A stretch of DNA of 38,369 nt from a virus. This document shows, one piece after another, positions 7,598 to 38,369 of this stretch. The stretch spans positions 1 to 38,369 of IMG/VR virus record IMGVR_UViG_3300014839_000021; one strand, written 5' to 3'. The notes beneath the pieces were generated by a model. The model searched no databases. It was not told the origin of the DNA and saw only the letters and a list, made by a program, of their open reading frames with translations. The translations under genes were made by a program, and so were the position numbers. Every line of letters begins with the position of its first letter. Position 1 is the first letter of the stretch.

Positions 7598-8340
7598 AAC
7601 TGGAGCGCCACGTCGTCATCTCCGATATGCACGCCCCGTTCCAGAACAAGGACCTCATGGCCAAGATCTGCATGATGATCCACGACATCAGGCCCGAGGG
7701 GTTCATCGTGAACGGTGACGGGGTGGATCTCTACTCCCTTGCCTCATTCAACGCCGATTCGCTCGACCTGCTGCGCGATCTGACGCTCACGAAGGAGTAC
7801 AAGCTCTCGAACCTGATGCTGGACGGCCTGGATCACGCCCTCCCGAAGGGGTGCACGAAGCACTACCTGTACGGGAATCATGAGGATCGGTACCGACGCG
7901 AGCGCGAGAGGGGGGACAGAGGGAAGTACGGGGACGCGCTGCAGTCGCCAGAGGACGCCCTTCGCCTTTCAGAGCGGGGGTATTCAGTCGGCACGAACTA
8001 CAAGGAGGACTTTGTCCGCCTGGGAGATCACCTGGAGGTCACGCATGGAATCTACGCCACCGTCCATTCAGCTAAAAAGCATCTCGACGAGTTCCAGGGA
8101 TCGGTCCTTGTGGGTCATACTCACCGACTCAATACCTTCATTTCTGGCAAACGAGGCGCCTGGAATGTCGGCTTCCTGGGCGACCTGTCAAGTCGAGGGT
8201 TTCACTACATCTCTCGTACTCAGCGAGACAAGTGGACGCAGGCACTTGCTGTTGTTTCTGTCTCGGGATCTGGTGACTTCTGGGTCGAGGTGATCCAGGT
8301 CCACGACGGGCGGTTCATCTACGCGGGAAAGGTCTACTAA
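7594..8340 (+). CDS. Calcineurin-like metallophosphoesterase
   Basis: 248 residues from the GTG at 7594, overlapping the previous stop. All metal-binding motifs are present: D11-M-H13, G41-D42...D45, G94-N-H-E97, H151 in VTHG, and GHTH at 174-177. The family hydrolyses phosphomono- or diesters with two metals. Phage members include DNA-repair nucleases, 2',3'-cyclic phosphodiesterases and nucleotidases; the substrate cannot be told from sequence. The longer in-frame extension upstream overlaps the DUF1599-like gene and is rejected. Confidence 0.85.
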   Translation: MKLERHVVISDMHAPFQNKDLMAKICMMIHDIRPEGFIVNGDGVDLYSLASFNADSLDLLRDLTLTKEYKLSNLMLDGLDHALPKGCTKHYLYGNHEDRYRRERERGDRGKYGDALQSPEDALRLSERGYSVGTNYKEDFVRLGDHLEVTHGIYATVHSAKKHLDEFQGSVLVGHTHRLNTFISGKRGAWNVGFLGDLSSRGFHYISRTQRDKWTQALAVVSVSGSGDFWVEVIQVHDGRFIYAGKVY

Positions 8341-8747: not shown

Positions 8748-8914
8748 ACCACATTGAGAACTTCGACTCGCCCGTCATCCGGATGATCGCAGTGGAGAAC
8801 GCCAAGAAACTCACGCTCCTTGCCGATCGACTGAAGCTCGCGTTTGACAGGGAAGACGGCGCCTGGGTCATCCAGGGAGCCCCGCGGAAGTCCCGGAAGC
8901 TGGCCCACGCGTGA
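8552..8914 (+). CDS. Hypothetical coiled-coil protein (120 aa)
   Basis: ATG at 8552 with AAGGA upstream. Entirely helical: a hydrophobic N-terminal helix (IKNLPEILILIVRDLTTLAT, about 7-26), then heptad-like segments (ATRLEAAERRLNHIENF at about 56-72, AKKLTLLADRLKLAFD at about 83-98). No family recognised. It overlaps the large terminase start by 4 nt. Confidence 0.6.
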   Translation: MRIIRAIKNLPEILILIVRDLTTLATSIREILGRLTTLESPKPVGPTLGTILGHATRLEAAERRLNHIENFDSPVIRMIAVENAKKLTLLADRLKLAFDREDGAWVIQGAPRKSRKLAHA

Positions 8915-10674: not shown

Positions 10675-12918
10675 ATGCCATCAACCGATCTCATGACAGG
10701 CGAACACGTCCAGGTAGCCCCTGGAGCTGGCACGTTTGTCATGGACCCCAAAGTGCTCCTCTCGGTCGAGATCCTGAACGCCTACGACAATGCCGAGCGC
10801 AAGGTCTGGGCGCAGCAGGCCCTTCAGGACGACGCCTTCCGCAACAACATCCAGTGGGACTTGGAAGCCATCAAGGTCCTCGAAGCCCGCAACCAGATGC
10901 CCATTGTCGTCAACGTCATCCACCCCGCGGTGGAGCAGGCCAAGGCGATGCTCACCACCAACCGCCCGCGCTTCAGTTCAACAGGCCGCGAAGACTCCGA
11001 CACCCGCACGGGCAGAATGTTCTCGGATCTCCTGACCTACATCTGGGACATCTCCCTCGGCATGGTCCAGGTCAAGCAGGCCGTGGACGACTACTACGTG
11101 CGGGGCATGGGCATCCTGTACGCCTATTTCGACCCGAACGCCGACTTCGGGAACGGCGAGGTGAAGTTCTCCGCCCTCGACCCCTTTGACGTCTACATCG
11201 ACCCGAACTCCAAAGACCCCTTTGCCCGCGACGCCCAGAACATCCTGATCGTCCGCGTGATGACGCGTGAGCAGATCCAGAGGATGTACCCCGAAGTCAT
11301 CGACAAACTGCAGACCGCCTCCCGCATTCAGAACTCGCGACAGCCCGTCCTCCACCGCGTGGGGCTGGAAGGCCAGATCCTCTCGGCCAACCAGTCTTTG
11401 GACCAGGAACACGAGCACTACGAGATCATCGACCGCTACTCCCGCGTCAAGAAGAAGCACTACAAGGCCGTTGACGGCACCACCAACCGTGAGAAAATCT
11501 TCAACTCGGACGAGGAACTCCAGCAATACGCGCAAACCAAGGCCGTCGTCAAGCAGTCATCGGGAGGCGAGCAGGTGGTGACCGATCCGGATGACGTCGC
11601 GCAGCTCCTCCAGATCAACGACCAGACGGGCGGCGTGTTCCACTTCGCCCAGGATCCTTCAAAGGACCAGCCGACGATGGTCCCTGGTCCCGAGGCCGAG
11701 GATGAGGCCGCGGTGCAGGGTTCGGAAACACGGCTCACGGTCTGCACGATCGCCGATTTGATCCATCTGAAGTTGATAGAGATCGTGCCCATACTCTCAG
11801 ACCGCATCAACCGCGTGCTCTCCGTAGGTGGCGTGCTCCTCTATGACGGCGAGCTCCCCCTGGAGGATTTCCCCATCGTGCCTGTTTATAACCGCTTCAA
11901 CAGGAACCCCTATCCGATGTCGGACGTGAGATTCGTCCGCCCGATCCAGGAATACATCAACAAGTTTCGCTCCCTCATCATCGCGCATACAGCCAATAGC
12001 TCGAACGTCAAGGCGTTCATCCCGCGCGGAAGCGTCAACAAGGCGGAGCTCGAACGTGAATGGGCCAAGGCGGGCGCCGCACTTATTGAATATGACGCGG
12101 AGTTCGGCGTCCCCGTGATCGCCTCGCCGCCCCCGCTTCCCAACGAGCTGTACAAGGCTGAATCCGACGCCCGCAAGGACATCCAGGAGATTCTTGGAAT
12201 CTACCCACTTATGCAGGGCGACTCCGGACAGGCCCCTAACACCTACAAGGGCACCGTGGCGATGGATGAGTACGGGCAGCGCCGCATCAAGAGCAAGAAG
12301 GACGACGTCGAACAGGCCCTGAACCAAATGGCCCGCGTCATCGTGGACATGATCCAGGCATTCTACACCAAGCCGAAAGTGATACGCCTCCTGGAACCGA
12401 ACCACAAGCCGAAGGAAGTCTCCATCAACCAGCCGATCTACAACGACGTGGACGACGTGATCGGCGTGCTGAATGACGTCACGATCGGCCGCTACGATGT
12501 CGTGGTCGTCTCGGGCTCGATGCTCCCGTCCAATCGCTGGGCTCGCTTTGAGTACTACATGGAACTGTACGAGAAGGGGATCATCGACCAGATCGAGGTC
12601 CTGAAGCAGACCGAGGTCGTGGACATGGAGGGCGTAATGAACCGCTTCGGCGAGATCCAGCAGCTCCGTCAGCAGGTCGCGGGCCTCACCCAGCAGCTCA
12701 AAGGCGTGCAGGGGGATCTCCAGACGGCCCAGAGGGAGAGCGTTCAGGACCGCAAGAGAGTCGAAGTCGAAAAGTTCAAGACTGGCCTGCACTCGGTACG
12801 CAACCGTGCCGAGGGAGCCCAGGAGCTATTCAAGGCGCGCCTGAACGACCAGCTCTCCAATCAGGAGAAGGCGGCCAAAGTAGAGATGCAACGAAGGAAG
12901 ATGCCTCCAAAGAAGTGA
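10675..12918 (+). CDS. Portal protein, P22-like
   Basis: 747 residues, close to the usual length of P22-type portals. Typical features: an N-terminal helix region, NRPRFSSTGREDSD (about 95-108), DDYYVRGMGILYAYFDPNA (138-156), LDPFDVYIDP (168-177) and a long C-terminal helical barrel rich in Gln/Glu (about 655-745). It forms the dodecameric ring through which DNA enters and leaves and to which the tail attaches. The start is uncertain: ATG 10675 abuts the terminator and has no ribosome site; ATGs at 10693 and 10741 are alternatives. Between terminase and scaffold, as expected. Confidence 0.85.
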   Translation: MPSTDLMTGEHVQVAPGAGTFVMDPKVLLSVEILNAYDNAERKVWAQQALQDDAFRNNIQWDLEAIKVLEARNQMPIVVNVIHPAVEQAKAMLTTNRPRFSSTGREDSDTRTGRMFSDLLTYIWDISLGMVQVKQAVDDYYVRGMGILYAYFDPNADFGNGEVKFSALDPFDVYIDPNSKDPFARDAQNILIVRVMTREQIQRMYPEVIDKLQTASRIQNSRQPVLHRVGLEGQILSANQSLDQEHEHYEIIDRYSRVKKKHYKAVDGTTNREKIFNSDEELQQYAQTKAVVKQSSGGEQVVTDPDDVAQLLQINDQTGGVFHFAQDPSKDQPTMVPGPEAEDEAAVQGSETRLTVCTIADLIHLKLIEIVPILSDRINRVLSVGGVLLYDGELPLEDFPIVPVYNRFNRNPYPMSDVRFVRPIQEYINKFRSLIIAHTANSSNVKAFIPRGSVNKAELEREWAKAGAALIEYDAEFGVPVIASPPPLPNELYKAESDARKDIQEILGIYPLMQGDSGQAPNTYKGTVAMDEYGQRRIKSKKDDVEQALNQMARVIVDMIQAFYTKPKVIRLLEPNHKPKEVSINQPIYNDVDDVIGVLNDVTIGRYDVVVVSGSMLPSNRWARFEYYMELYEKGIIDQIEVLKQTEVVDMEGVMNRFGEIQQLRQQVAGLTQQLKGVQGDLQTAQRESVQDRKRVEVEKFKTGLHSVRNRAEGAQELFKARLNDQLSNQEKAAKVEMQRRKMPPKK

Positions 12919-13847: not shown

Positions 13848-15191
13848 ATGTCTGCCAAGACACTCAGTTCGCTGGGGATCCTCTACACCGATCGTCGGGA
13901 CTTCTACATCAGCCCGAACCAGGTGAAGGAACTCTGGACAGACGTCACGCCGTTCACCACGATCCTCGCAAACAGAGAGATCCGGAACGTGCAGGACGTT
14001 GACTACAAGATGTTCGAGCACCGCTCGGGCTGGATCAAGCAGGAGTTCAGCGTCAATGCCACAACGCCGCCCACGTTCGCCACGGGCGCAGCGGGAGAAT
14101 CACTCTCCGCAGGGCTCGCGGTTGACGGCATCAACGGCCTCGCATCGACCGTCGATACGTCCTACCGCAACCTGCAGTGCGAAGTCTGGGATTCGACCAA
14201 AACCACGTACAAGGGGCTCGTCTGCGTCACCGACATCTCAGGCGGAAACCTGGTCGTGAAGAGCCTGGGCAACCCGCGGCTTGCGTCGAACCACGTCGCG
14301 GCCCTGGCCGATAACGACGTGTTCCAGGTGGTCGGGACGGCATTCGGAGAAGGAACCTACGCTCCGGACGGGTTCGCCGACGATCTGCAGGTGGTCTACA
14401 ATTCGCCGCAGATCTTCAAGACCTCCATCGAGATCACGGGCACCCTCTACGCCGCGGCCCTACGCGGATACAGCTCGGAACTCGAACGGCTCCGGATCGA
14501 GAAGAACAAAGAGCACAAGATCCACAAGGAGTTCGCGCTCCTCCGCGGCGCCCGCACGGGCGGCACGGGGATGGCTTCGCTGGCTGGGAACGACACCTCC
14601 GCGGATACCCACCAGAACGCGGGAATCACCGACAAAGACGGCAAGCTCATCCGGACGACCATGGGAATCATCCCCACGATCTACCGTTACGGCGCGACGT
14701 CGGGCTCGGCGCAGAACATCTTCACCATCTCCGCGGCGACCTACTCCTACTCCAACTTCGTGGACGACATGGAGAAAGTGTTCCAGTACCTCCCCGAGAA
14801 CGGCGAGAAAGTCGCCCTCTGCGGCGCAGGAGCTCTCTCGTACTGGAGCAAGGTGGACGCGGCCAACGGCTTCATCAAGAAATCGGGCCTCGTCGTCCAG
14901 ATGGACGCTGGAACACAGCGGGATTCGCTCGGCTTCAACTTCCGGAGGCTCATCACCCCTCACGGGAACCTGAAGCTGGTGTACGCGCCCGCGCTCCGCG
15001 ACACGTACCGCAACACCATGCTCGTGATCGACCAGGACAACCTGTTCCTGTCCCAGTACCGCGCGCCGAAGTTCATGGCGAACATCAAAGTCGATGACGG
15101 GTACGACGGGATCAAGGATATGTGGTTCTCGGACGAAGGACTCGGCATGACGCTGATCGAAAGGCACGAGATCTTCAACATAACGGCCTGA
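13848..15191 (+). CDS. Major capsid protein (HK97 fold, SU10/DUF5309-like)
   Basis: 447 residues with GGGAAG before the ATG. Position after the scaffold, length and a helical spine-like segment (RGYSSELERLRIEKNKEHKI, about 206-225) followed by EFALLRGARTGG fit the SU10/DUF5309 group of HK97-fold capsid proteins. A P-domain-like beta region and a C-terminal strand/helix block (LVYAPALRDTYRNTMLVIDQDNLF) follow. The hairpin just after the stop is a common arrangement behind capsid genes. Confidence 0.82.
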   Translation: MSAKTLSSLGILYTDRRDFYISPNQVKELWTDVTPFTTILANREIRNVQDVDYKMFEHRSGWIKQEFSVNATTPPTFATGAAGESLSAGLAVDGINGLASTVDTSYRNLQCEVWDSTKTTYKGLVCVTDISGGNLVVKSLGNPRLASNHVAALADNDVFQVVGTAFGEGTYAPDGFADDLQVVYNSPQIFKTSIEITGTLYAAALRGYSSELERLRIEKNKEHKIHKEFALLRGARTGGTGMASLAGNDTSADTHQNAGITDKDGKLIRTTMGIIPTIYRYGATSGSAQNIFTISAATYSYSNFVDDMEKVFQYLPENGEKVALCGAGALSYWSKVDAANGFIKKSGLVVQMDAGTQRDSLGFNFRRLITPHGNLKLVYAPALRDTYRNTMLVIDQDNLFLSQYRAPKFMANIKVDDGYDGIKDMWFSDEGLGMTLIERHEIFNITA

Positions 15192-21391: not shown

Positions 21392-21822
21392 GACTGCCAC
21401 TCTACCTGTTACTGAGCACGCTCCTCTGCGTCGGCTGCGGCAGTACGACCGAGTTTGTGGCGCATGAAACGCGCGTTGAGGATCATCTCATCAACGTCGA
21501 TGTCCCCGATGTCCACGTCACGCTCCAGGGAGTCATCAAGGATAGCGTCATCGTCGCCACGACTCCGGATTCGGTCAAGAAGCGTCCCTGGGTCCGCACG
21601 CACACGAACATCCACACGGGCGTCGTCCAGGTGGACGTGCTCATGCCCGACACCACGATCGTCGATCGGGACACCACGCAGGTCACCTCGACCACGGTTG
21701 TCGAGAAGCCAGGGTTCTTCGACCAGTTTAAGACGGGGATCCTCCTTGCGTGTCTCCTGGTATTTGTCGTCGGCGTCTCCCTTGGCGGGATCAAGCTTGC
21801 CAAAATGCTGAAGATCATCTAA
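21388..21822 (+). CDS. Probable unimolecular spanin (lipoprotein with C-terminal membrane helix)
   Basis: 144 residues. The N-terminus MRLPLYLLLSTLLCVGCGS is a lipoprotein signal peptide with probable acylated Cys17 (the residue at -3 is Cys, slightly atypical). The middle is beta-rich (VPDVHVTLQGVIKDSVIVATT, HTNIHTGVVQVDVLMP). Residues about 116-136 (KTGILLACLLVFVVGVSLGG) form a C-terminal membrane helix with a short basic tail. A lipid anchor at one end and an inner-membrane helix at the other is the hallmark of u-spanins, which fuse inner and outer membranes in the last step of lysis of Gram-negative hosts. It overlaps the endolysin by 4 nt. Confidence 0.7.
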   Translation: MRLPLYLLLSTLLCVGCGSTTEFVAHETRVEDHLINVDVPDVHVTLQGVIKDSVIVATTPDSVKKRPWVRTHTNIHTGVVQVDVLMPDTTIVDRDTTQVTSTTVVEKPGFFDQFKTGILLACLLVFVVGVSLGGIKLAKMLKII

Positions 21823-23417
21823 TGCCCAGAGAAGAACTCAATATCGAGCGTTTCGACGTCGGCCTCGTGACTGCCATTGACCCGAAAGACGTGAGCCTGG
21901 ACGCCTCAACGGATGGCTCCGTGAACCTGGAGGCGATGACCGCGCACGGGCGCCTCAAAGGGCGTTTGGTGGACGGCGCCTCCATCTGCTACGCCATGAC
22001 AGGGTCGAAGATGTCGGGCCTGATTTATTCGGCGACGGCCTACGGAGCCCTGGTGACCTGCGACGGCTCGACGATTTATACGACGCGCTGGTTCTCGGGC
22101 GGGTTCACAACGAGCGAACTGGTGAGCCAGGGGTCGGTGTCGAGTCCTGGCAATATGACCGTGTTCAACCGCGAGGTCCGCGTCGGCGGGACGACCCCGA
22201 AGCTCTGCGGGTACAACGAGAACAGCGGGTCGGAGTCCATCCTCTACGGCGACTGTGAGTGCCGCGGGATCAACCTCGCCTCAGTGACAAACGTGCTTCC
22301 CTGCGCCGTGGTGGATGTCACAACCCCTGGAGCTCTGGCCCAAACCACTCAGTACTTCTACAAGGTGTCCATCGAGTACGATAACTACGAGGAATCCATA
22401 CTGAGCGCCCAGGAGCCCGCTATGGCGATCGGTGTCGGCCTTGCCATTCCCATGTTCAGTTACCATCCCCTGCCAGGGTACAGCTCAGTCCAGATCATCA
22501 TAAAGATCCCCGATGCGATCTTCGAGAACCCTCGGGTGACGGCGGTGAACCTCTACCGCGCGGAATCCGTGTGGGAACAGACGGCCGCGGGACTTGACCC
22601 TCCTCCCGTCATCGTGGCGGACTCACTCTACCGTCAGATTATCCGCATTCCCAAGACCGACTCGGCCTGGGTGAGCACGATCCCAGGTTCCTGGTACGGA
22701 GGATACCCGCCAGGCTTTGTCTCTGACGATTCCTCCGCCCACGGATACAGGTACACGGACATCGGGGGAGACGACGGGCAGACCTACGAGGACCGCACGG
22801 GGATCTCTGGGACGCTCGACTCCAACTTTGTGAACTACAAGCTGAGCGCGGTCGTCAACTCCCAGTTCGTGATCGCCCAATGTCAGCACTCCGAGATCAC
22901 GGACGCAGGGCTCATGATCTTCAAGAGCAAGGCGAACCGCCCCGATATGTTCGACTGGATCGACGATTTCATCAAGATGCCCACGATGCCCGTCTGTATG
23001 CTCGGCTTCAACGGCAGGCTCTTCGTGTTCGACGGTGGTTCGATGTACGTGGTCAATATCGACGAGATGTTTATCGAGGATGCGATGCAGGGGGTAGGCG
23101 TCGGCAGTCCCTTCTCCGCTCTGGCGACGCATCACGGTCTTTTCATCCTTGACAGGAATATGCCCTGGGTTCACGACGGGACGGAGCTTATCCCTCTTGG
23201 CGCGGCGATCATCGACAAGTGGCGTAACCAGACCTGGGACCAGTACTCGATGGTCGCCTGGCACGAACGCTCGGGCGCGGTCCTTTTCATGGATCTCTCC
23301 CACGGCGTGGCTTTCGCGTATAGTATCGCCTCGAAGCGGTGGGACTACTGGACACTTCCCGCCTCCTGCCAGAGTGCGATCACCGATCCCTCCAGTAACG
23401 TCATGCTGGTGACCTGA
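21822..23417 (+). CDS. Virion structural protein, beta-propeller-like (531 aa)
   Basis: ATG at 21822 sharing a base with the preceding TAA. The opening (ERFDVGLVTAIDPKDVSLDA, then SVNLEAMTAHGRLKGR) matches the N-terminal theme of phage tail/head-closure proteins built from repeated blades, and Trp/Tyr-rich beta segments (e.g. GGSMYVVNIDEMF, HGLFILDRNMPWVHDGTEL) recur. Candidate tail hub or gp10-type stabilisation protein. The mapping to P22 gp10 is inference. Confidence 0.55.
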   Translation: MPREELNIERFDVGLVTAIDPKDVSLDASTDGSVNLEAMTAHGRLKGRLVDGASICYAMTGSKMSGLIYSATAYGALVTCDGSTIYTTRWFSGGFTTSELVSQGSVSSPGNMTVFNREVRVGGTTPKLCGYNENSGSESILYGDCECRGINLASVTNVLPCAVVDVTTPGALAQTTQYFYKVSIEYDNYEESILSAQEPAMAIGVGLAIPMFSYHPLPGYSSVQIIIKIPDAIFENPRVTAVNLYRAESVWEQTAAGLDPPPVIVADSLYRQIIRIPKTDSAWVSTIPGSWYGGYPPGFVSDDSSAHGYRYTDIGGDDGQTYEDRTGISGTLDSNFVNYKLSAVVNSQFVIAQCQHSEITDAGLMIFKSKANRPDMFDWIDDFIKMPTMPVCMLGFNGRLFVFDGGSMYVVNIDEMFIEDAMQGVGVGSPFSALATHHGLFILDRNMPWVHDGTELIPLGAAIIDKWRNQTWDQYSMVAWHERSGAVLFMDLSHGVAFAYSIASKRWDYWTLPASCQSAITDPSSNVMLVT

Positions 23418-26408: not shown

Positions 26409-27926
26409 ATGGACCAGAACCAGCAATCGCAGCAGCAGGGCGGACCTTCGGGCGTCAACGCAGAGAAGATCGGGCGGCTTGTGCAGATGTACAACCAGAA
26501 CCCAGGCGCGTGGAACCCGAGCCAGGTCAAGTCGCTCTACCAGGCGGCCACCTCTGTCGGAATCCCGATGGACATACCTGGCTCGGCGGGGCGCTTCCTC
26601 GGGTCCGCCGCTGGCGGGTTCCTGCACGGAGCGACATTCGGACTCGTCCCCTCGGACGCCTTTGCCACGCCAATGACGCCCACGGATGAGAAGCTCCAGG
26701 GGGTCGGCAGTATGCTCGGCGGTCTTGCTACGGGTACGGTGGCGGGAAAGTTCGCCGTCAACAGCGCCCGCTCGATCGGAAGCGAGATGCTCGCCAAGGG
26801 TCTTGCTGAACGCGTGACGGCGAAGGCCGCAGGCGCGGAGGCTGCTTCGGCAGTCGCCAACGCGGGCGCTGATGCGGGGTCATTCACGAACAAGCTCAGC
26901 GGGATGTTCTCGAAGGCGTTCTCCTCCGACAAGATGATAGACCTGCTCCAGCGGGTGAAGGACTCTCCTGGACTTCAGAAAACGATCAATGACGCCATCA
27001 TGGGCGGGGTGATGGGCGCCACGCCGAATCTCCTCTCCGATCCTGGCGAAGCTTTGACACAGGGCTTGGTCGGGGCGGCGATGGGCGGAGCGTACGGCGG
27101 ATACCAGGCAAAGAGGGAAGGACTCGCCTTTGGTCCCGCCGTCTCCGAGGAAGCGGCGGTGAAGGCGGGAGCGCAGGCCGAGCAGCAGGCTTTGAGCGCA
27201 GGCGCCCCACAGGGCGAGGCGACCGTTGCGGGACAGAAGGAAGCAGCCCGCGTTCGCGCACAGGCGACTCAGGCGGCAACGCAGGCTGAAGCCGAGAAGC
27301 AGGCGGCACAGCAGAGGCCGTCGAGCGGAACGCCTCCTCCGGATGTCGCGCCGCCTTCGGCTGCGCCTGCTCCTCCTGCACCCGTTCAGACTGCGCCGCC
27401 GTCAGCGCCGACTCCTCCCCATGGACCAAGTCTCCCGAGTGAGCCGACGCCTCCCGCGGCTTCCAGGATGATGAAGAATACCCTGGTGACAAAGTACGGG
27501 TTCACCCCCGAACAGGTAAGCGCGATGAGCGACAAGGACATCTTCGACGCGATCCAGAAGGGCCAGAAGGCGGGGAGCGGGGCCAAGGTGGTCCACTCGG
27601 CGCCTCCGGGACCGCCTCCCACGGAACCGCCGTGGCCTGGCAAAGACGGGATGTATCGAGAGGAACCTACGGCGATCCCCGCCAACGCGAAGACCGCGCC
27701 ACTCTCAAGCAAGGTGCGCCAGCTCTCGCTCCCCGAGGCGGTAGAGAACCATGAGCAGTTCCTCTCGGGGAAGAACAAGACGACCATCAAGCAGATCGCT
27801 CTTTCGGCGCAGAAGCCCGCGGTGCAGAAGGCGCTCCTGCGGCTCTGGGCGGCGAAACGGCAGTTCGGCGACAACACGCCCACCAAGGTCAACACGATGG
27901 CGCAGCAGCTCAAAGTCAGTCTGTAA
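26409..27926 (+). CDS. Probable internal/ejection protein, Ala/Pro-rich (505 aa)
   Basis: AAGGAG before the ATG. Gly/Ala hydrophobic stretches (AGRFLGSAAGGFLHGATFGL at about 58-77; DAIMGGVMGATPNLL around 196-210; GLVGAAMGGAYGGY around 219-232) alternate with helices; a Gln/Ala coil (about 255-300) and a Pro-rich region (about 302-350) follow. The end is basic and helical (KTTIKQIALSAQKPAVQKA). The membrane-active Gly segments support the ejection role. Confidence 0.55.
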   Translation: MDQNQQSQQQGGPSGVNAEKIGRLVQMYNQNPGAWNPSQVKSLYQAATSVGIPMDIPGSAGRFLGSAAGGFLHGATFGLVPSDAFATPMTPTDEKLQGVGSMLGGLATGTVAGKFAVNSARSIGSEMLAKGLAERVTAKAAGAEAASAVANAGADAGSFTNKLSGMFSKAFSSDKMIDLLQRVKDSPGLQKTINDAIMGGVMGATPNLLSDPGEALTQGLVGAAMGGAYGGYQAKREGLAFGPAVSEEAAVKAGAQAEQQALSAGAPQGEATVAGQKEAARVRAQATQAATQAEAEKQAAQQRPSSGTPPPDVAPPSAAPAPPAPVQTAPPSAPTPPHGPSLPSEPTPPAASRMMKNTLVTKYGFTPEQVSAMSDKDIFDAIQKGQKAGSGAKVVHSAPPGPPPTEPPWPGKDGMYREEPTAIPANAKTAPLSSKVRQLSLPEAVENHEQFLSGKNKTTIKQIALSAQKPAVQKALLRLWAAKRQFGDNTPTKVNTMAQQLKVSL

Positions 27927-28027: not shown

Positions 28028-31000
28028 ATGGATGACCAGTCGATAGCACTTCTCAATTCGCTGTACCAGCAGAAACCCGAAACATTCACCGATGACCAGG
28101 TCGCCTCGCTTCAGCAGGTGAACAAGGATGCGGGCAAGGATTTCCAGCCCAAGGCATCGGCCCAGCCATTTAATCTTCTTAATACCGTTGCACAACTAGG
28201 CGAAGGATTCCTTCAGGGATTCACGACGATCAAGATGGGTGAAGCCCCGCAGAACACGGTCGAGGGGATCGCCCGATCGGTCGGGAGCCTCCTGGGATTT
28301 GTCGGCTTCGTCCCTGGCCCTGGCATCTTCAAGGCATTCAAGCGCGAGGGAATGGCGGGCGTTACCGCCGCGGCGACCCATGACGCGCTCGGCATCCAGC
28401 TCAAAAGCGTGCCCATGTGGATTTCGGACAAGATCATGGGCGGACTGCAGAAAACCATCGCCCAGACCGAAGCGGCGAGTGCAATCAAGTTCTTCAAGAA
28501 TGGCTCGATCGCGCGCGACGTGACCGAGGGCGCCCTTTCGCTCGGCATCGCCTCGGCGGTCGGCGCGGCGCAGCCCTGGGAGCTGAACATCGAGGACCGC
28601 ATGAAGGCATTCCTCGGCGGGGCGGAGGCAGGGGGCGTGTTCCGCGGTATCGGTAACACCTTCGCCAAGGGCGGCGCGATGAACATGGGGAGTGAGGCGA
28701 CGAACCTCCTGGCCCGTACGCTCTCGGCATCACTCTATTCTGGCATCCCCTCCACGCTCCGCGGTGAGCCGATGGAGATGCAGGTCTATGAATATCTCCT
28801 CGGGGCCTGGTTCGGCAAGAACGAGCAGCCCGCGTACATGAGGGAAGTGCATGGGCTGTTCAAGGACTACCTCGGCGACACGACTCGCCAGATGGAGCTC
28901 CTCGACCCCTCAAAACTCCCTGGCTACGACAACCTTTCGGACAACGCCAAGATCGAGGCAAAGGCCCAGGCGCAGCTCCTGGTCGGGGGATGGGAAGAAT
29001 CGGCAAAGGCAAGCGAGGCGGCAATCGCCGCCTCCCAAGCCTTCGCAGGCTCCATGACTGACGCGCTGGCGACGGGCAGGATAAGCCCCGAGCAGTACCG
29101 CGACTGGTCGAGAGTCCAGGTCGTCGAAGGCGCCTACCGCAAGACGAAGGATACGGTCGATCAGGAGCACCCCGAGTTGGATGAGGAGACACGTTCGGCG
29201 ATGGCGCGGCAGGGCGCACTCGCCAACGTTGCGGAGTTCTCACGGCAGGCCCGCACGAACACAGACGCGCTCAAAAGGCTCTGGGCAGCAAGCGACCAGG
29301 AGAACGTCTGGATGCACTCCAACGGCGGGACGCAAGTTCTGAAGATGTTCGACGACCGCGAGGTTGCCCGCCAGTGGATCGCCCCCGTCTACGAGCTGGC
29401 AAACCAGCTTGCGGAGTCGCGTGGAGCGATTGACAAGAAGAACGACGTCACCTATGCAAGCGAGATCATTGACCACGTCAAGGCGTCGGGCAAGGGTGCA
29501 AACCAACTGGATGCCTTCCGCGCCAGGATACTGAAGGAGTACTCGCTCGACACGACCAAGGACGCGGACTTGAACCGCAAGATCGTGCAGACCGTGGCCC
29601 TGGTGAGTCAGTCCAAGAGGCTCAACCGCCTGATCCTGAACAAGGACGGCGATGTAGTCCAGATGCCCCGCATGGACATGGACGGGGATTCGACCTCGAT
29701 GGACTATGTCCCCACGTTCATTGAGAAGAAGTCGGGAGCCACGGCGCACCTGCTCTCCTCCCAGTTTACCGAGGATGAGGAGAAGCCGCTGAATGACATC
29801 GAGTTTAATGCGGCCAAGATGATCGTTTCGGCCTACGGCTACACGGCGTCGACCACGGGACGCGACGGGACCGATGTCGCCCGTAGCGTGCCCCTGATAT
29901 ACTTCGGCCATGTGAAGGACACCCCTCATGAGGTGTTCCTGACGAGTGTTGTCTCGCGCGCGAAGGACGGCTGGACCTACGAGGTGAACGGCGAGAAGCG
30001 AACGGTGAAGTTCCTCCAGAAGCTCGACGAGCTTAACCGTGCCCCCGCGATGGCGGGACGCGACGCACGGAGCGACTACCAGGCGAACAGGGAGGACTTC
30101 ATCAGAGAGTACGCCGAGGGGAAGCCCATCTCCGAGCAGAAGAAGGTCGAGCTGAGGGATATTTACGAGCACCTGACGATGCAGAACATCGCCGTCGCCG
30201 AGCAGATGAATGACGGCATCTCGATCGGCGACCAGATGGCTTCCGCGCATGAGGCCCAGGGCGGCCTGTCCTTCATGACGAAGGTAACGGATTTCAACAA
30301 GCGTATGCAGCCGATGTTTAACCGCGATCCCCTGGCGGACCCCGAACAGTTCAAAGACATCCTTCCTGATGGGAAGATGAAGGGCGTCCTGGTGCAGATG
30401 GACGAGAGCCCGCAGGGTGGGAACGCGATGCAGAAGGTCGAGGACAAGAAGGGGAACGTCGTAGACAAGATCTACGGCGAGGCGACCGATGGCGTGTTCC
30501 TCATGACTGGTCCCGTGTACGAGCGCCTTGCCGCCTCGATGGGGCTGCCGAAGGATACGGGCGGGCAGAAGGGGACCGTGATGTATTCGGACAAAGCGGA
30601 CGGGATGTTTATCGGCAAGCTGTTCTTCCACCGTGCGAGTCCCGAGATGGAGAAGTCCATGACGGAGCGCGGTATACACTTCCAGGCGTACACGACGGCG
30701 GCCAAGCAGTTCGGCAAGCGTCCCGTGTTCACCGAGAAGTACTCGGGCGGGAGGTTTTCCTACGAGCGGCAGGGCGGCACGTTCCTCGATGACGGCACCT
30801 TCGAGTTGCCCGTTGACTCGATCCGGATGAACTTCGGGGCGGGGGAGATGGGTGGATTCCATGACACCTACTACAAGAGGCAGTTGGCCGACAACCTGGA
30901 CCTGGTGCATTCGATCGGCTGGGACGAGAACATACTGAAACCCGCCAACCGCGGGCGCGATTCGCAGAACCTGATCGCGGCGAAGTACTGGAACGTGAAC

Positions 31001-34000
31001 GAGAAGCGCCGCGCGGAGTTGGATCAAGAGTTTGCCGCCGATGTCGAGAAGCACGGCGTTCAGCTCGGGAGCCAGCGCCTGGTGGACCTGATGGTGGGCG
31101 CCGAGCGCAAGAGTTCGCCCATCTACAACACGGTGCTGAAGGACGTTCTGAAGTGGTACGGGCGTGAGATGGAGACTGCGGAGAACCGATCGGATGACGC
31201 GCTGGCCGAGCTCACCTTTCTCTCCAAGGCAAAGACGGCGGCTGACCGTATCAAGGCGGCCAACATCTCTGACCCGCTGGTGATGGAGCTGAAGCAGATC
31301 AAGCCGTTCTTCCATACGATGCTTCGCCGTTACTTGACCGACCGCCTCATGGGGCCGACAAGCGAGGGCTCCTGGAAGTCGAAGCTGTATTCCGCCGATC
31401 GCTCCTTGATAAGCCGTATCCACGAGGGCGAGTACCTGGCAGCGGACGGGCTGAAAGACAAGCCCATCCAGTTCCTGGGGAAAGAAACGCGCCTGGAGGA
31501 TGCCTGGACGAAGTACAACAGCAAGACGTTGTCAGGAAACGATCAGGCGCAGGCCGAGCGGGACCTGGAGCATTTCGTGATGCGCGTCCCTGCGGATTCG
31601 CCCTCTGGCGTGCGGGTGATGAAGTTCAAGGGGTTCTCAGGGAGTCAGGGGTACGGAATCTACCTTCACCCGAAGGATATGCAGGCTCTGGGCGGAGCCG
31701 ATCTTGACGGCGACGCGGCGGACGTCTATACGAAGATCGGCTCCTCGGCGGACTTTAACGAGAAGCTCAAAACGTATTTCCGCTCCAAGAAGGATATGTG
31801 GCAGAAGGAGAACGGCGTCACCGTTCCCTCCTCGTCGGACGGCCTGGCGGTTGAGGGGCGTGATCCTTTGATAACCGCTCGGCTGAAGAGCCCCGCCTCG
31901 ATGGTGGATCCTCTTTCACGGGCGAAGGTGGGACGCTGGGCCAACATGGGCAACTCGATGCTGGGCCGCGCCCTGACGCGCACGATGAGGCTCCGCGAGA
32001 TGCAGAAGTTCGCGCTCGATAACGGCGGGACAATCCGCGGGAAGTTCTCCAACTCGGACGCCGTTCGCCTCATGCTGGCAAAGAAGCTCCCTGGTGCCGA
32101 CCGCTTCATTCCCGAGGAGCTGGAAGGGTTGAAAGCCTCCCTGGACAAGACGCGCCGCAGACAGTCGGACTGGGACAATATCAATACCGCGGTGAAGAAG
32201 GCGGGACTCTCCGCTGGCGTCTGGAAGGCGGACCTGAACCTCGGTCAGACCGCGACGGGGGCGACGAAGCTCCAGGAGATGCGGCGTAATGTTATTAACA
32301 CGGCGGCAGACGCGGCCAAGGGGGACGAGCTCTATGCCTACAAGGACATCCGGAGCGCGATCAATTCCTCGGCTTTCTCCAACATGAAAGTGCAGTTCAA
32401 GCGGGACGGGAAGCTCACCGTCTCGGCGGTGGACGATTACCTCCTGGTGGACAACCACGACTACTACAAGAAGCTGACGGCCATCGGCGGCTTTGCGACG
32501 GCCAGGGACCCCAAGACGGGACGAGCTTTCTCCTTCTTTGAGGCACTTGAAGGGCTCCAGGCGAACGCGAAGGTGGACAAGAAAACGGGTGAGATCCCCT
32601 TCGACCCGAGCGCGGTGCGTTTCCGCGTGGCGAACCATCTGGCGCAGATCGAGCTTACGGCACGCGACATCGACCTCACCCATGTCATCGGTCCAGGCTG
32701 GCCGCTGGCGCGTAAGGCACTTGACAAGATGATCCGCGAGAACAGGGAGTTCCGCGAGATGGTGAACCGCAAGCAGATCACGATTGACACCAGGGGCGAG
32801 GCGGCGTTCGCTCAGACGGTGGATAAGACGACGCTGGGCGGCCAGGACGACATCAACGAGATCCGTATGCAGGATCTCCAGGACGTCGCCACCTGGAGCG
32901 AGGTGGGGAATTTAGGACAGCAGGTCATGGATTCCCAGGTGAAGGGGGGCGCAAAGAGGGAGGACGTTCTCGCGTATTTCGCGCAGATCGCCGATAAGAT
33001 CGACGACCTGAAGGCCGAGGACGCCACGATCAGGAAGGACAAGTTCTCTGGCGAGGAGCCCAAGGCCCGTAAGACGGTCGAGCAGGTGGTGAAGGAGGCA
33101 TCCGATTTCAGGAAGGCGCTTCCGGAAGTCTACGCGCCCTACTTCGATGCGTGGGCGGCAGGGTCCCTGTTCCGTCAGGGCGAGGAGTTTGAGGCGCGGC
33201 CTGGCGTGAAGGCGCTCCGTGCGGGCGAGGCGGAGGCCAACAGGCAGGGTGGCGAGACGCTTGGGGCCTGGAAGCAGGCGCTTCATGAGGAGAGTAAGGA
33301 CTGGAACCGCACCAATTCGACCAACTTCGCCTACGCGCTCGACGTCGTTGCCCCTGATGCCATACGCAACCAGGTCCAGCGCATGGTGGACATCGGGCGC
33401 ACCGTGTCGAACATACTCCCCAGGGCGAAGAGCGAGTTCGCCGAGACGGAGCTTCGGAGCGTGGTGTTCGCGCCCAAGCTCGTCACCCCCGAGTTGAAGG
33501 CGGTCATGCCTGAGACGGTGCTCATGCTGGCCCCGATCGAGCAGACGAAGGTCATCGCCGCCGTACTCGGCAACATCGAGCAGGTGAAGGTGTCCAATAC
33601 GTTTGCCCATGATGCCTTCGAGCTGGCGAAGCTCCAGGTGAAGGATCCCGAGCTGAAGCAGCTCTCGGGCGATCTCAGGCGCCTCCTGGATCATTTCCCC
33701 CAGTTCATGCGGGACATCCAGGGATGGCTGGAAGGAACCGTCGCCGAGTCCAACGACCAGGGTGTCGGAGTCGGACCACGGAAGTTCACCAAGCAGCACC
33801 TGAAGATGGTCGTCAACAGCTTCAAGGTAGGTGATAAGTTCTGGTGGGAGCTCTCGGCAAAGGAACGCGAGTTCTCCCTGGCGAACCGTCACTTCCTCTA
33901 TGATCCCGAGATGCTGGGGAGAAAGATGCTTGCGGGCGACCACAAGTTGATGGATTCTGTCTCACCCGTGATCGACGACGTGGAGGGGCCGATCTTCAAG

Positions 34001-36583
34001 CCCGTCAAGGTGTTCAAGAGTCACATGAGCGAGATCGCCGACCTCTGGCAGCACGCCCACTGGTCGTTCAACGGCGCGATGAAGAACGAGGGGCAGGTGT
34101 TGGACCGCTTCCTGTTCCCCGTCAGGGCCTCTGGCAAGGATGGTTACACCCTCTTTTCGATCGCTTCGGACATACGGCAGGGGGGTGTCGGACGGCGCCC
34201 TGGGGTCAGCGCCGAGTCAGCGGCGGCCTATGCGACAATCGAGAAGCGCGGACTTGACCGCTTCAACAAGGAGTATGACTTCGGCAGGAAGAGGGTACGC
34301 TACTCGGACATGACGGGCTCGACCGACATCACGGCGAAGGAAGCCCTGGAGAAGATCACCAAGCTCCAGACGGACTTCTTTGCTCGCTGGCAGTCGATCA
34401 TCTCGAATCCTATAAACGAGAAGCGGTACCTCAAATATCATGCGGGGACGCAACTCATCGACGTCACCGAATCCCTCCGTGCCCTGAACGATCATATAAA
34501 ATACGGTCGTCAGCTCCCCGACATCGGGATCGAGGGGATGTATAAACTGATACACCAGATGAGCGTCAACAAGATGGTCGTCAACGGGCAGCGCCTGGGT
34601 GACCTCTCCGCGGTGGACCGCGAGAGGACGATGGCCGAGCTCTTCAACCGCACCAGGGCGAATGGTTCACGCCCGTATGCGTTCCTCCGCTATAAGAACC
34701 TGGAGTTCATGAGCCCCGCGATGTACTTCCCGCACAACGGGCACTCGGAAAAGATGCTCCGTGAACGCCTGAACAACGAGCGCGAGAAGATGCGGGCTGC
34801 CGTCTCTGGCCCTGAAGCAGTGGCGATGGACAATCTGGAGAGCCTGGAGCGGGTGACGAGCCTGAACCTGGAGGACGCGGGGATGTCAGACTCGGTCATG
34901 CGTCAGTTGGAGGCCCGCACCCTCTCGGACAAGGACTACGCCTCGCTCAACATCAGGCCCCAGGCGCTAAAGCTCCGCGATGAGCTGCCGCTTCCTGGCT
35001 GGGACCAGTCGCCCCTTGCCCTGGAACGGTATCAACAGCAGATGCTTCGTGGCTATTACAACATGGTGGGAGCCGTGATGTCGAGCGCCCGCGTGGACAA
35101 CTTCGCGTACTCCAAGCCCTTCGGAGAGAACACGAAGCCCTGGGAGATCTTCATGAGGATCTTCAACCGTAACAACCTGGGGCATCCCTCGACCTTCCCG
35201 CAGGAGTGGCTTGACCATCCGGAGTACAAGATCAAGGGCAACCCTGGCTACTACTGGCTCACCGATCAGTACTGGCTGGACAAGGCCGCGCAGATCGACA
35301 AGGAGCACTTCCAGATCATCAGTAAGCCCACTGATGAGATGACGGCGAAGGACAAGGAGCACAACTGGGAGGTAAAGAAGAACCAGCAGCAACGCATCAG
35401 GAAGATCGCCGCCTTCTCGAACCTGGAGGCCAAGTGGGAGATGATCTCCATGCTCTCGCACACCAAGACGGCCATCAACAACCTGATGGGCGGGACGACG
35501 AACAACGCTGTGTCGCTCGGTCTTGGCCCCTACGTGCGGAGCCATTCGCTCAATTACTGGAGGGGGATCTTCCCGCAGATACGCAGCATGGATGATATGA
35601 GGCTCTTTGCCGAGAAGCATGGGGCAGGGGAGAGCTGGGTGAACGACGCGCTGGAGTCCCGAGGGCTGGGCCAGGATCGGAAGTTCTCGGGAGCTCTGGC
35701 CGAGGCCGTCGCCGAGATCAAGCGCAACCCGAAGCTCTCGGACATCGACCTGTTCCACATCGCCGACAAGCACGGCGTTGACCGCGCCTTCTTCGATACG
35801 GGCGCCTGGTTCATGCGTAAGACCGAGCGGTATCTCCGCAACCAGTCTTTTCTTGCCCATTACTCGAAGGCGCGTGAAGCTCTGGGAGCGAACAGTTTTA
35901 CCTTTGAGGACGACGACCCTTGGCTGATTAAGATGGCCAACAGGGGCGTCAAGACGACGCAGTTCCTCTATAACAACGCTTCACGCCCCGCCTTCGGGCG
36001 GACGTCACTGGGTAAGGTGTTCACCCGCTTCCAGATGTGGGCATGGAATAGCGGCAAGATGCGCTTGGAGGTCTACAACAAGGCGAAGGAAGTGGGATAC
36101 GCGCAGGGCAGCCCTGAGTTCGAGCGCCTCCGCCGTCTGATGATCTCAGACCTCTTCACCTTTGCCCTGGCTGGGCTGTTTCCCTCGACGATCTTCGGGT
36201 CGAACATGGCGCCGCCGTGGTCGTTCCTCCAGGACGCTTCCAGCTTCTTCTTTGGGAACGATGAGGACAAGGACAGGGCGTTCTTCGGGAGCCTGCCGTA
36301 CCCGCTGAACATCGTCCAGCCCGTGTCGCCTCCGATCACGCGGCTACTGTATCCGACGTTCCAGGCCGCGGTATCGGGCAACTGGGATCGGTTCTTCGAC
36401 TATCACGTCTGGACGTGGTTTCCTTACGGGCGTATGGCGAATAGCGTGCGGAAGACGATGCAGGACCCGTCAATGGCGGTGGAGCAGTTCACTGGCCTAC
36501 CTCTTCACCGTCTCGCCTCTGACGTGAAGAGGAAGGACCAGGACAGGGCGACGACTGAGGGGATTATCTCGGGTCTGCTCTGA
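28028..36583 (+). CDS. Giant virion protein with two-barrel (DPBB) RNA polymerase signatures
   Basis: 2851 residues, GAGGGA before the ATG. The N-terminal 250 residues contain Gly/Ala membrane-active segments as in the upstream ejection proteins. Residues about 820-900 resemble the first double-psi barrel of phage and RdRp-type polymerases: TDGVFLMTG, GGQKG (K848), IGKLFF (K864), and a TTAAKQFGKR end (K893). Residues 1186-1229 match the beta-prime catalytic block: R1186-V-P, YLHP (1212-1215), nine residues, then D1225-L-D-G-D1229, the Mg-binding motif; compare NRAP...LHP...NADFDGD in bacterial RpoC. The C-terminal 500 residues end in a hydrophobic patch (LFTFALAGLFPSTIFG). Most likely a packaged RNA polymerase injected with the DNA. 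Activity is inference; the motif is directly visible. Confidence 0.8.
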   Translation: MDDQSIALLNSLYQQKPETFTDDQVASLQQVNKDAGKDFQPKASAQPFNLLNTVAQLGEGFLQGFTTIKMGEAPQNTVEGIARSVGSLLGFVGFVPGPGIFKAFKREGMAGVTAAATHDALGIQLKSVPMWISDKIMGGLQKTIAQTEAASAIKFFKNGSIARDVTEGALSLGIASAVGAAQPWELNIEDRMKAFLGGAEAGGVFRGIGNTFAKGGAMNMGSEATNLLARTLSASLYSGIPSTLRGEPMEMQVYEYLLGAWFGKNEQPAYMREVHGLFKDYLGDTTRQMELLDPSKLPGYDNLSDNAKIEAKAQAQLLVGGWEESAKASEAAIAASQAFAGSMTDALATGRISPEQYRDWSRVQVVEGAYRKTKDTVDQEHPELDEETRSAMARQGALANVAEFSRQARTNTDALKRLWAASDQENVWMHSNGGTQVLKMFDDREVARQWIAPVYELANQLAESRGAIDKKNDVTYASEIIDHVKASGKGANQLDAFRARILKEYSLDTTKDADLNRKIVQTVALVSQSKRLNRLILNKDGDVVQMPRMDMDGDSTSMDYVPTFIEKKSGATAHLLSSQFTEDEEKPLNDIEFNAAKMIVSAYGYTASTTGRDGTDVARSVPLIYFGHVKDTPHEVFLTSVVSRAKDGWTYEVNGEKRTVKFLQKLDELNRAPAMAGRDARSDYQANREDFIREYAEGKPISEQKKVELRDIYEHLTMQNIAVAEQMNDGISIGDQMASAHEAQGGLSFMTKVTDFNKRMQPMFNRDPLADPEQFKDILPDGKMKGVLVQMDESPQGGNAMQKVEDKKGNVVDKIYGEATDGVFLMTGPVYERLAASMGLPKDTGGQKGTVMYSDKADGMFIGKLFFHRASPEMEKSMTERGIHFQAYTTAAKQFGKRPVFTEKYSGGRFSYERQGGTFLDDGTFELPVDSIRMNFGAGEMGGFHDTYYKRQLADNLDLVHSIGWDENILKPANRGRDSQNLIAAKYWNVNEKRRAELDQEFAADVEKHGVQLGSQRLVDLMVGAERKSSPIYNTVLKDVLKWYGREMETAENRSDDALAELTFLSKAKTAADRIKAANISDPLVMELKQIKPFFHTMLRRYLTDRLMGPTSEGSWKSKLYSADRSLISRIHEGEYLAADGLKDKPIQFLGKETRLEDAWTKYNSKTLSGNDQAQAERDLEHFVMRVPADSPSGVRVMKFKGFSGSQGYGIYLHPKDMQALGGADLDGDAADVYTKIGSSADFNEKLKTYFRSKKDMWQKENGVTVPSSSDGLAVEGRDPLITARLKSPASMVDPLSRAKVGRWANMGNSMLGRALTRTMRLREMQKFALDNGGTIRGKFSNSDAVRLMLAKKLPGADRFIPEELEGLKASLDKTRRRQSDWDNINTAVKKAGLSAGVWKADLNLGQTATGATKLQEMRRNVINTAADAAKGDELYAYKDIRSAINSSAFSNMKVQFKRDGKLTVSAVDDYLLVDNHDYYKKLTAIGGFATARDPKTGRAFSFFEALEGLQANAKVDKKTGEIPFDPSAVRFRVANHLAQIELTARDIDLTHVIGPGWPLARKALDKMIRENREFREMVNRKQITIDTRGEAAFAQTVDKTTLGGQDDINEIRMQDLQDVATWSEVGNLGQQVMDSQVKGGAKREDVLAYFAQIADKIDDLKAEDATIRKDKFSGEEPKARKTVEQVVKEASDFRKALPEVYAPYFDAWAAGSLFRQGEEFEARPGVKALRAGEAEANRQGGETLGAWKQALHEESKDWNRTNSTNFAYALDVVAPDAIRNQVQRMVDIGRTVSNILPRAKSEFAETELRSVVFAPKLVTPELKAVMPETVLMLAPIEQTKVIAAVLGNIEQVKVSNTFAHDAFELAKLQVKDPELKQLSGDLRRLLDHFPQFMRDIQGWLEGTVAESNDQGVGVGPRKFTKQHLKMVVNSFKVGDKFWWELSAKEREFSLANRHFLYDPEMLGRKMLAGDHKLMDSVSPVIDDVEGPIFKPVKVFKSHMSEIADLWQHAHWSFNGAMKNEGQVLDRFLFPVRASGKDGYTLFSIASDIRQGGVGRRPGVSAESAAAYATIEKRGLDRFNKEYDFGRKRVRYSDMTGSTDITAKEALEKITKLQTDFFARWQSIISNPINEKRYLKYHAGTQLIDVTESLRALNDHIKYGRQLPDIGIEGMYKLIHQMSVNKMVVNGQRLGDLSAVDRERTMAELFNRTRANGSRPYAFLRYKNLEFMSPAMYFPHNGHSEKMLRERLNNEREKMRAAVSGPEAVAMDNLESLERVTSLNLEDAGMSDSVMRQLEARTLSDKDYASLNIRPQALKLRDELPLPGWDQSPLALERYQQQMLRGYYNMVGAVMSSARVDNFAYSKPFGENTKPWEIFMRIFNRNNLGHPSTFPQEWLDHPEYKIKGNPGYYWLTDQYWLDKAAQIDKEHFQIISKPTDEMTAKDKEHNWEVKKNQQQRIRKIAAFSNLEAKWEMISMLSHTKTAINNLMGGTTNNAVSLGLGPYVRSHSLNYWRGIFPQIRSMDDMRLFAEKHGAGESWVNDALESRGLGQDRKFSGALAEAVAEIKRNPKLSDIDLFHIADKHGVDRAFFDTGAWFMRKTERYLRNQSFLAHYSKAREALGANSFTFEDDDPWLIKMANRGVKTTQFLYNNASRPAFGRTSLGKVFTRFQMWAWNSGKMRLEVYNKAKEVGYAQGSPEFERLRRLMISDLFTFALAGLFPSTIFGSNMAPPWSFLQDASSFFFGNDEDKDRAFFGSLPYPLNIVQPVSPPITRLLYPTFQAAVSGNWDRFFDYHVWTWFPYGRMANSVRKTMQDPSMAVEQFTGLPLHRLASDVKRKDQDRATTEGIISGLL
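31583..31714 (+). other. Polymerase catalytic block (R-x-P to D-L-D-G-D)
   Basis: Codons 1186-1229 of the giant gene: Arg-Val-Pro, a 23-residue strand region, LHP, and at 31700-31714 the Asp-Leu-Asp-Gly-Asp motif preceded by Gly-Gly-Ala. The Leu variant (DLDGD) is the form usual in cellular RNA-dependent RNA polymerases and is also found among phage two-barrel enzymes. Confidence 0.75.
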
Positions 36584-37185: not shown

Positions 37186-38184
37186 TCAAGGGATGGTTCG
37201 AAGGCTTGGCAAACGATCGACAGTCTCGTGCATCTCGCGCGATACCAGGTGTGAGTATCCCATCGTTGTCGCGATCGAGGTGTGGCCCATAATCTTCTGG
37301 ACATCCTGGACGGCAGCTCCGTTCTTCAGAGTCAGCGTCGCAAATGCATGACGTAGCGAGTGGAAGTGAACGTCCGAGTCGATCCCAGCTCGTTTCTTCG
37401 CTCTTGCGAAGAGGCGAGAGACATGGTGAAGTGTCGGCGGGGTTCCCTTCTCTGTGACAAAGACACGGACGGTACTTTGATCCATCCCGTTCAGGATCAG
37501 GAGCGCCTGGGCGTTGAGGGGAACCCAGCGTTCTCTGTCGCCCTTCCCGTATCGTACATGGAGGAGACGTTCGTACAACTGGACATCATCCCAGGTGAGC
37601 TCGACCAGTTCCTTCCGCCGCAGTCCCGTCAAGATCGCAAGGGCGATGATGTCCTTGTGCCATTTGCTCCGCAGTCCCTTCCAGAGTTTGTCAAAGTCGT
37701 CGGGTGAGACGTACACCTTCCCGCTGGTTTTCACATAGAGGTTCTTCAGGAAGCGCAGAGGATTCTCCGCAAGGTATTCCCGCTGGACGGCGTAGGTGAA
37801 CATGGCTTTGAGCTGGCGGAGATGAATCAGCACCGTTGCCTTGCCCCTACCCGTCCCGAGAAGGGCGCGGTACTCGTCCATGCGTGCGGGAGTGATCGTT
37901 GAGAGGCGCCAGTCGCCCCCCCACGCGAGGAACGGCTTGAGGATGTCCCTGATGAGTTGCTGTGTTGTCGGCTGGTGTTCGGCCTTCGAGTGCGCGAGGT
38001 AGGCATCAGAGAACTCTCGCAGGGTAGCGTTGGAGGTGTGGCCTGGGATGCGGAAGTCGCGGAGAGTGACCCGTGCTTTGCCCCTTTCCCTGTATCCCGT
38101 CGATTTGCTATGCTCTCTGCCCGTTGAATCCTTGTACCGAATTATATATATTCCATCGTAGCGTTTCGTGAGGGAGGGGGGCAT
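37186..38184 (-). CDS. int: Tyrosine integrase (site-specific recombinase)
   Basis: 332 residues on the minus strand. N-terminal arm-binding part (about 1-50; KRYDGIYIIRYKDSTGRE), core-binding helical domain (about 51-145; includes LREFSDAYLAH and the LRQLKAMFTYAVQREYL helix), catalytic domain with all active residues: R189 in TGLRRKELVELTW, K214, H275-x-x-R278 in HSLRHAFATL, H301 in IMGHTS, and nucleophile Y310 in TMGYSHL. It would integrate and excise the phage by strand exchange through a 3'-phosphotyrosine. Length is typical. It lies next to a tRNA-His, a usual target. No strong ribosome site at the ATG. Confidence 0.93.
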   Translation of the reverse strand: MPPSLTKRYDGIYIIRYKDSTGREHSKSTGYRERGKARVTLRDFRIPGHTSNATLREFSDAYLAHSKAEHQPTTQQLIRDILKPFLAWGGDWRLSTITPARMDEYRALLGTGRGKATVLIHLRQLKAMFTYAVQREYLAENPLRFLKNLYVKTSGKVYVSPDDFDKLWKGLRSKWHKDIIALAILTGLRRKELVELTWDDVQLYERLLHVRYGKGDRERWVPLNAQALLILNGMDQSTVRVFVTEKGTPPTLHHVSRLFARAKKRAGIDSDVHFHSLRHAFATLTLKNGAAVQDVQKIMGHTSIATTMGYSHLVSREMHETVDRLPSLRTIP

Positions 38185-38227: not shown

Positions 38228-38251
38228 CCAGCGTAGAAAAACCAACGCTGG
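38228..38251. repeat. Inverted repeat overlapping the tRNA 5' end
   Basis: CCAGCGT (38228-38234) and ACGCTGG (38245-38251) are perfect 7-bp arms around AGAAAAACCA. The right arm includes the first five bases of the tRNA. It could be a core-type integrase site, or a weak hairpin competing with the acceptor stem. Confidence 0.45.
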
Positions 38252-38320
38252 CGTAGCTCAGTTGGTTAGAGCACCAGATTGTGGATCTGGGGGTCACTGG
38301 TTCGAATCCAGTCGCCAGTA
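38247..38320 (+). tRNA. tRNA-His (GTG anticodon)
   Basis: Complete cloverleaf: acceptor GCTGGCG/CGCCAGT, D arm GCTC...GAGC, anticodon arm CCAGA-TTGTGGA-TCTGG with anticodon GTG (38281-38283), variable GGGTC, T arm ACTGG-TTCGAAT-CCAGT, discriminator A at 38320, no encoded CCA. The first pair is a G-T wobble, and there is neither G at -1 (it is C) nor C at 73, which most bacterial tRNA-His have. The 5' end, not the 3' end, faces the integrase. Confidence 0.9.
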
Positions 38321-38338
38321 CTATTCGATTGTTTCTCC

Positions 38339-38365
38339 ATTTTCAATCCTCGATTTTCAATCCTC
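38339..38365. repeat. Tandem 13-mer at the window end
   Basis: ATTTTCAATCCTC at 38339-38351 and 38353-38365, period 14, in an AT-rich stretch after the tRNA. Possibly a regulatory or attachment-flanking repeat; its extent beyond the window is unknown. Confidence 0.5.
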
Positions 38366-38369
38366 CATC

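Follow-up and report, generated by a model that had tools for sequence, protein, structure and literature searches.

A giant protein of a probable provirus, very likely built around a single-chain two-barrel RNA polymerase core and probably a virion polymerase

What might a virus make of a single protein of 2851 residues? The question is raised by IMG/VR virus record IMGVR_UViG_3300014839_000021. The window analysed here, 38,369 nucleotides in all, comprises an open reading frame, 28028–36583 on the + strand, which is uninterrupted throughout. This had been stated in an initial annotation made from the sequence alone, which proposed that the product was a virion protein with a two-barrel RNA polymerase core. 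The proposal was based on short motifs, and all of them were recovered at the expected residues: GGQKG (845), IGKLFF (862), TTAAKQFGKR (889), RVP (1186), YLHP (1212) and DLDGD (1225). Giant packaged polymerases have a precedent in the podovirus N4, the virion RNA polymerase of which has a T7-like palm and a fold unrelated to that of the two-barrel enzymes. A second D-x-D-G-D sequence, DMDGD at residue 550, was absent from the annotation. As a catalytic site it was rejected: position 550 is N, T or S in nearly all relatives.

Straightforward searches were silent. Pfam and PHROG searches with the giant protein gave no significant family, and a search of PDB sequences no significant match; the profile of its family (alignment A1) retrieved chance-level matches only from the same PDB sequences. 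Neither the protein nor its relative L054 had a tblastn match in 50,697 phage records, and a scan of viral contigs with the full-length single sequence found none. Relatives were obtained from IMG/VR with more focused probes: 143 were confirmed with a 56-residue catalytic block, 182 with a profile of the core and 296 with a profile of the C-terminal domain, these three sets overlapping. Full-length relatives (mostly about 2,800–3,500 residues) share 22–27% identity with the window protein. Most records that entered the genome searches measure 31–56 kb, and many of the relatives' contigs are presumably marine, judging by their sample numbers. Scans of 84,980 species genomes yielded no confirmed relative, and neither did a search, lacking a positive control, of 297 genomes from the host phylum. 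Within the C-terminal-domain set, 77 loci comprise 22 that are truncated by contig ends and a single short complete ORF (442 aa, at locus L242) that has the C-terminal domain and no polymerase signature.

Are the motifs more than a coincidence of letters? Among 121 full-length relatives, a set biased by retrieval patterns that drew in part on the RVP and DLDGD motifs, K864, K893, G896, R898, R1186, P1188, D1190, S1191, D1225, D1227 and D1229 are present in every sequence, and H1214 in 119. Because the first two scans had been probed with R-V-P or DLDGD pieces, conservation was recounted on 39 full-length proteins for the retrieval of which the C-terminal domain had been the sole probe. In this bias-free set K864, K893, R1186, P1188, D1225, D1227 and D1229 are again invariant (39/39); R1298 (34/39) and R898 (33/39) are less strictly kept. 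The expectation that DLDGD would be conserved in homologues is thus borne out for its three aspartates in both sets. The fourth residue of the motif, in the 39 proteins, is G in 32, I in 5, S in 1 and A in 1, so that some members have DLDID or DLDSD; DLDID comes close to the DFDID of crAss polymerases. Two other elements of the initial annotation stood in part. Its beta-prime-like block is conserved as regards R-x-P, the histidine and D-x-D-x-D, but the proline of YLHP, P1215, varies (P, S, G or A among the 121). Likewise, the lysine-bearing segment likened to the first barrel does hold two invariant lysines, K864 and K893, but K848 of GGQKG is usually Asn in the 121 relatives. Judged by sequence, the conserved motifs of the giant protein are not due to chance.

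Among the checks that the initial annotation had put forward was structure prediction followed by a structure search, and its outcome, a fold match, agrees with the proposal. Two AlphaFold models were made, one of window residues 640–1480 from 50 aligned sequences (model 1: pLDDT 76, pTM 0.76), the other of the region of L054 equivalent to window residues 700–1660 (model 2: pLDDT 90.6, pTM 0.87). With model 1, Foldseek matched QDE-1 (E 1.7e-6) and 6VR4, the virion RNA polymerase gp66 of the crAss-like phage phi14:2 (E 6.1e-6); with model 2, 6VR4 came first in the PDB (E 6.9e-8) and QDE-1 next, the probability being 1.00 in all these cases. Against predicted viral structures the best match was A0A516LW39_2 (E 4e-29, TM 0.61), and several proteins of crAss phages were within the top 21. 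The matches of both models cover the core. Globally, TM-scores against solved polymerases amount to no more than 0.22–0.33 and rmsd is large, and the match is therefore confined to the core and to its local arrangement.

The order of parts in the models is that of single-chain two-barrel RNA polymerases: DPBB-B, connector, DPBB-A and bridge helix (PMC10770324). The predicted DPBB-B, the beta-like barrel, spans residues ~783–934 (30374–30829, +), as delineated from the strands of the model and the alignment of K893, and comprises the invariant K864 and K893; Lys893 (30704–30706, +) is the candidate active-site lysine of this first barrel. It is followed by a helical connector, residues ~951–1108 (30878–31351, +), in a clamp-like position, to which a role may be given by analogy (PMC10770324). 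The predicted DPBB-A, the beta-prime-like barrel, occupies residues ~1181–1234 (31568–31729, +), from R-x-P to D-x-D-x-D, in both models and in the alignment with the crAss profile. Within it DLDGD, residues 1225–1229 (31700–31714, +), is the candidate Mg2+-binding catalytic triad. Finally, a helix of 37 residues in model 1 and 36 in model 2 comes after DPBB-A and is by its position the predicted bridge helix, residues ~1295–1331 (31910–32020, +).

How close is this core to that of the crAss virion polymerases? In hhalign, alignment A1 was compared with a profile of phi14:2 gp66 and 12 segments of crAss-type polymerases, of which two are very short. When all rows were kept as aligned, the best two matches were separate, one for the D-x-D-x-D block and one for the lysine block; with template match columns only, a single alignment of 299 columns joined both motifs, with a score of 44.3. 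Its pairwise E-value of 3.5e-4 (probability 37%) is not calibrated on a database, and column shuffles are the better guide: 200 of them gave a mean score of 15.5 (sd 2.5) and a maximum of 25.4. Similarity to the crAss polymerases thus extends across both barrels. K893 is aligned with K1065 of gp66, a lysine in every crAss row that covers the position, and D1225 with gp66 D1361; the lysine blocks look alike, for example MTNRGIHQINTVETVK in crAss and MTERGIHFQAYTTAAK in the giant protein. Two marks of the two-barrel superfamily are found: a D-x-D-x-D motif within the predicted DPBB-A, from its invariance, the fold match and its alignment to D1361-FDID of gp66, and another barrel with conserved lysines. 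Taken with the fold and the bias-free conservation, this alignment supports the two-barrel core placed by the initial annotation, at about residues 780–1335, and a single-chain two-barrel RNA polymerase core is very likely, as far as models can tell. That it would be of the crAss rather than of the N4/T7 kind is supported as well: no T7-like structure is among the Foldseek matches listed, and a Pfam search at E<=1, PF00940 included, returned nothing, bearing in mind that the N4 enzyme itself may have diverged beyond the reach of PF00940. A PF00940 search of 43 records carries no weight, since its control was silent.

Among known systems, phi14:2 gp66 (6VR4) is the best PDB match of the high-confidence model. 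It is a giant protein near the end of a structural cassette, a single chain with the lysine barrel ahead of the D-x-D-x-D barrel, and the alignment pairs its M-x3-GI...K and R-[IV]-P...D-x-D-x-D blocks, in the same order, with those of the giant protein. However, it has DFD[IV]D where the giant protein has, as a rule, DLDGD, and aligned identity is about 10%. The genomes differ too: crAss phages have about 100 kb, whereas contigs with the giant protein, in the set examined, have at most 56 kb. Thermus phage P23-45 also has a two-barrel RNA polymerase inside a giant virion protein, gp96, with DFDGD at 779 (PMC10770324), but there the polymerase occupies the N-terminal part of a 5,002-aa tape measure, in a phage with a long tail; gp96 is absent among the 50 Foldseek matches listed. 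QDE-1 shares the two-barrel single-chain core, yet is a eukaryotic RNA/DNA-dependent polymerase of RNA interference, without a virion role.

What lies around the core is also informative. The N-terminal module, residues 1–115 (28028–28372, +), recurs in the protein encoded directly upstream (26409–27926, +; 505 aa), which an hmmsearch with the N-termini of giant proteins matched at E 3.6e-9. This fits the proposal of the initial annotation that ejection proteins are encoded just upstream, and makes the 505-aa product a candidate ejection protein. The upstream proteins of relatives share the module likewise (hmmsearch, E 7e-7 to 4e-3), and single-sequence phmmer found no homology between the upstream proteins of the window and those of relatives. 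The module was found neither in phi14:2 nor in P23-45 or the other phages examined. It is likely, from these comparisons, to be a common tag for packaging in the virion or for ejection. At the other end, the C-terminal domain, residues 2590–2840 (35795–36547, +), is the best conserved part of the protein (36–45% identity, alignment A4), ahead of the polymerase core; its tblastn matches are weak (E 0.02–8), some being annotated as DarB-like or PLxRFG phage proteins.

All this leads us to propose, with a probability of about 0.85, that the giant protein is a virion RNA polymerase, which would be packaged, ejected and would transcribe early phage genes independently of the host polymerase. It would be a single chain, the middle of which would form two double-psi beta-barrels: one bearing K864 and K893, the next bearing R1186-x-P and the Mg2+-binding D1225-x-D1227-x-D1229, then the bridge helix. 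This core would be embedded between a module in common with an ejection-type neighbour and a conserved C-terminal domain. Packaged in the virion, the protein would leave it together with the DNA or before it, and transcription of the early genes might begin before, or independently of, the action of the host RNA polymerase. Catalysis of RNA synthesis, the use of a DNA template, packaging, injection and the early-gene role are what we infer; packaging and injection are likely by analogy, from the position of the gene and homology to gp66. A search for promoter-like 9-mers in the window and four relatives gave counts about as in shuffles and no repeated motif.

Could the enzyme instead be made after infection, and stay out of the virion, as YonO of SPbeta or gp64 of P23-45? 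Single-chain two-barrel enzymes of this sort do exist (PMC10770324; for YonO, PMC5467207). We nevertheless consider this unlikely: the giant gene closes the structural cassette, the N-terminal module is common to its product and the smaller adjacent protein, the conserved C-terminal domain weakly matches DarB-like or PLxRFG phage proteins, and gp66, which among characterised phage enzymes is nearest in fold, is annotated from MS/MS as a virion component. A polymerase fold that was degenerate, or had been repurposed for structure or ejection and had no catalytic activity, would account for the very slight resemblance in sequence to enzymes already characterised, for the one member that reads DLDAD and for a C-terminal domain better conserved than the core. 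Yet the three aspartates and both lysines are invariant in all full-length members, the bias-free set included, an invariance that would not be expected after a loss of catalysis, and this reading has to be held very improbable. Slightly less probable still is that the product is a giant polyvalent virion protein, DarB-like or of another kind, in which DLDGD is coincidental. The weak C-terminal matches to DarB-like and PLxRFG proteins would speak for it, but the fold match already disfavours it, as does the profile evidence for a polymerase core, and ORFs of more than 500 residues in the portal-sharing phages examined have no D-x-D-G-D.

To what kind of phage, then, does this virion polymerase candidate belong? 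The window encodes, all on the + strand, a terminase large subunit (8911–10389; phrog_38, E 1.4e-69; 29–32% identity to relatives), a portal protein (10675–12918; phrog_156, E 3.4e-79; 39–41%) and a major capsid protein (13848–15191; phrog_1328, E 2.3e-7, and comparison with relatives). Four relative genomes share the terminase, the portal, the protein between portal and capsid, the capsid and the giant protein. The corresponding crAss head genes are in other PHROG families (6681, 6547 and 11589), and by this head-gene test the phage does not belong to Crassvirales. Giant proteins of phages with a similar portal were considered as relatives and rejected, as no ORF above 500 residues in those examined has D-x-D-G-D. 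Other features of the region may be recorded. At 7321–8340, before the terminase, a metallophosphoesterase-like protein falls below the Pfam cut-off; the structural region of phi14:2 also has a metallophosphoesterase (g075). The product of 21750–23417 resembles the C-terminal parts of 1,219–2,403-aa proteins of relatives, as though a large protein of tail type had been divided in the window. The G+C content of the window (1–38369) is 59.5%, against 36–40% in the four relatives.

The right end of the window tells another story. A tyrosine integrase (37186–38184, –; PF00589, E 1.8e-32) precedes a tRNA-His(GTG) gene identified by ARAGORN (38247–38321, +), the probable integration site, of which two Ignavibacteriae MAGs have identical copies. 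The tRNA and the final 48 bases (38322–38369) are identical to Ignavibacteriae MAG L192, from a fen, and the record therefore probably ends in host DNA; a second such MAG, L193, has 90% identity over 123 bases of the tRNA-His end. In L192, adjoining the same tRNA-His, positions 2568–2630 resemble the N-terminus of the window integrase, which suggests a reused integration site. With an integrase and a host–virus junction at a tRNA, seen at the right end with the left junction outside the window, this member is probably a provirus; the simplest reading, and a likely one, is integration at the tRNA-His of an Ignavibacteriae-type host. No tyrosine integrase was found in 42 relatives. A temperate life style, together with a virion polymerase resembling that of phi14:2, has been suggested for the epsilon crAss-like phages, but these yielded no integrase (PMC11054128).

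Beyond the initial annotation, the phage has head genes that are not of the crAss type and an N-terminal module shared between the giant protein and the upstream one, and this member is probably a provirus. On balance, we favour the view of a temperate phage at an Ignavibacteriae-type tRNA-His, with a crAss-like virion RNA polymerase within the head set of a non-crAss podovirus. If this is true, an injected polymerase has moved between unrelated phage lineages, or predates them, and lysogeny goes together with an injected polymerase, the gene for which has to remain off in the prophage; how the two are reconciled is the question that the provirus state, if confirmed, would raise. The shared N-terminal module is a testable candidate for a packaging or ejection signal. 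Injected two-barrel polymerases were already known from crAss-like phages, from P23-45 and, as multisubunit enzymes, from jumbo phages: a lineage that differs in its head genes and counts hundreds of contigs from the environment, missed by Pfam, PHROGs and records of isolates, would make such polymerases a wider theme.
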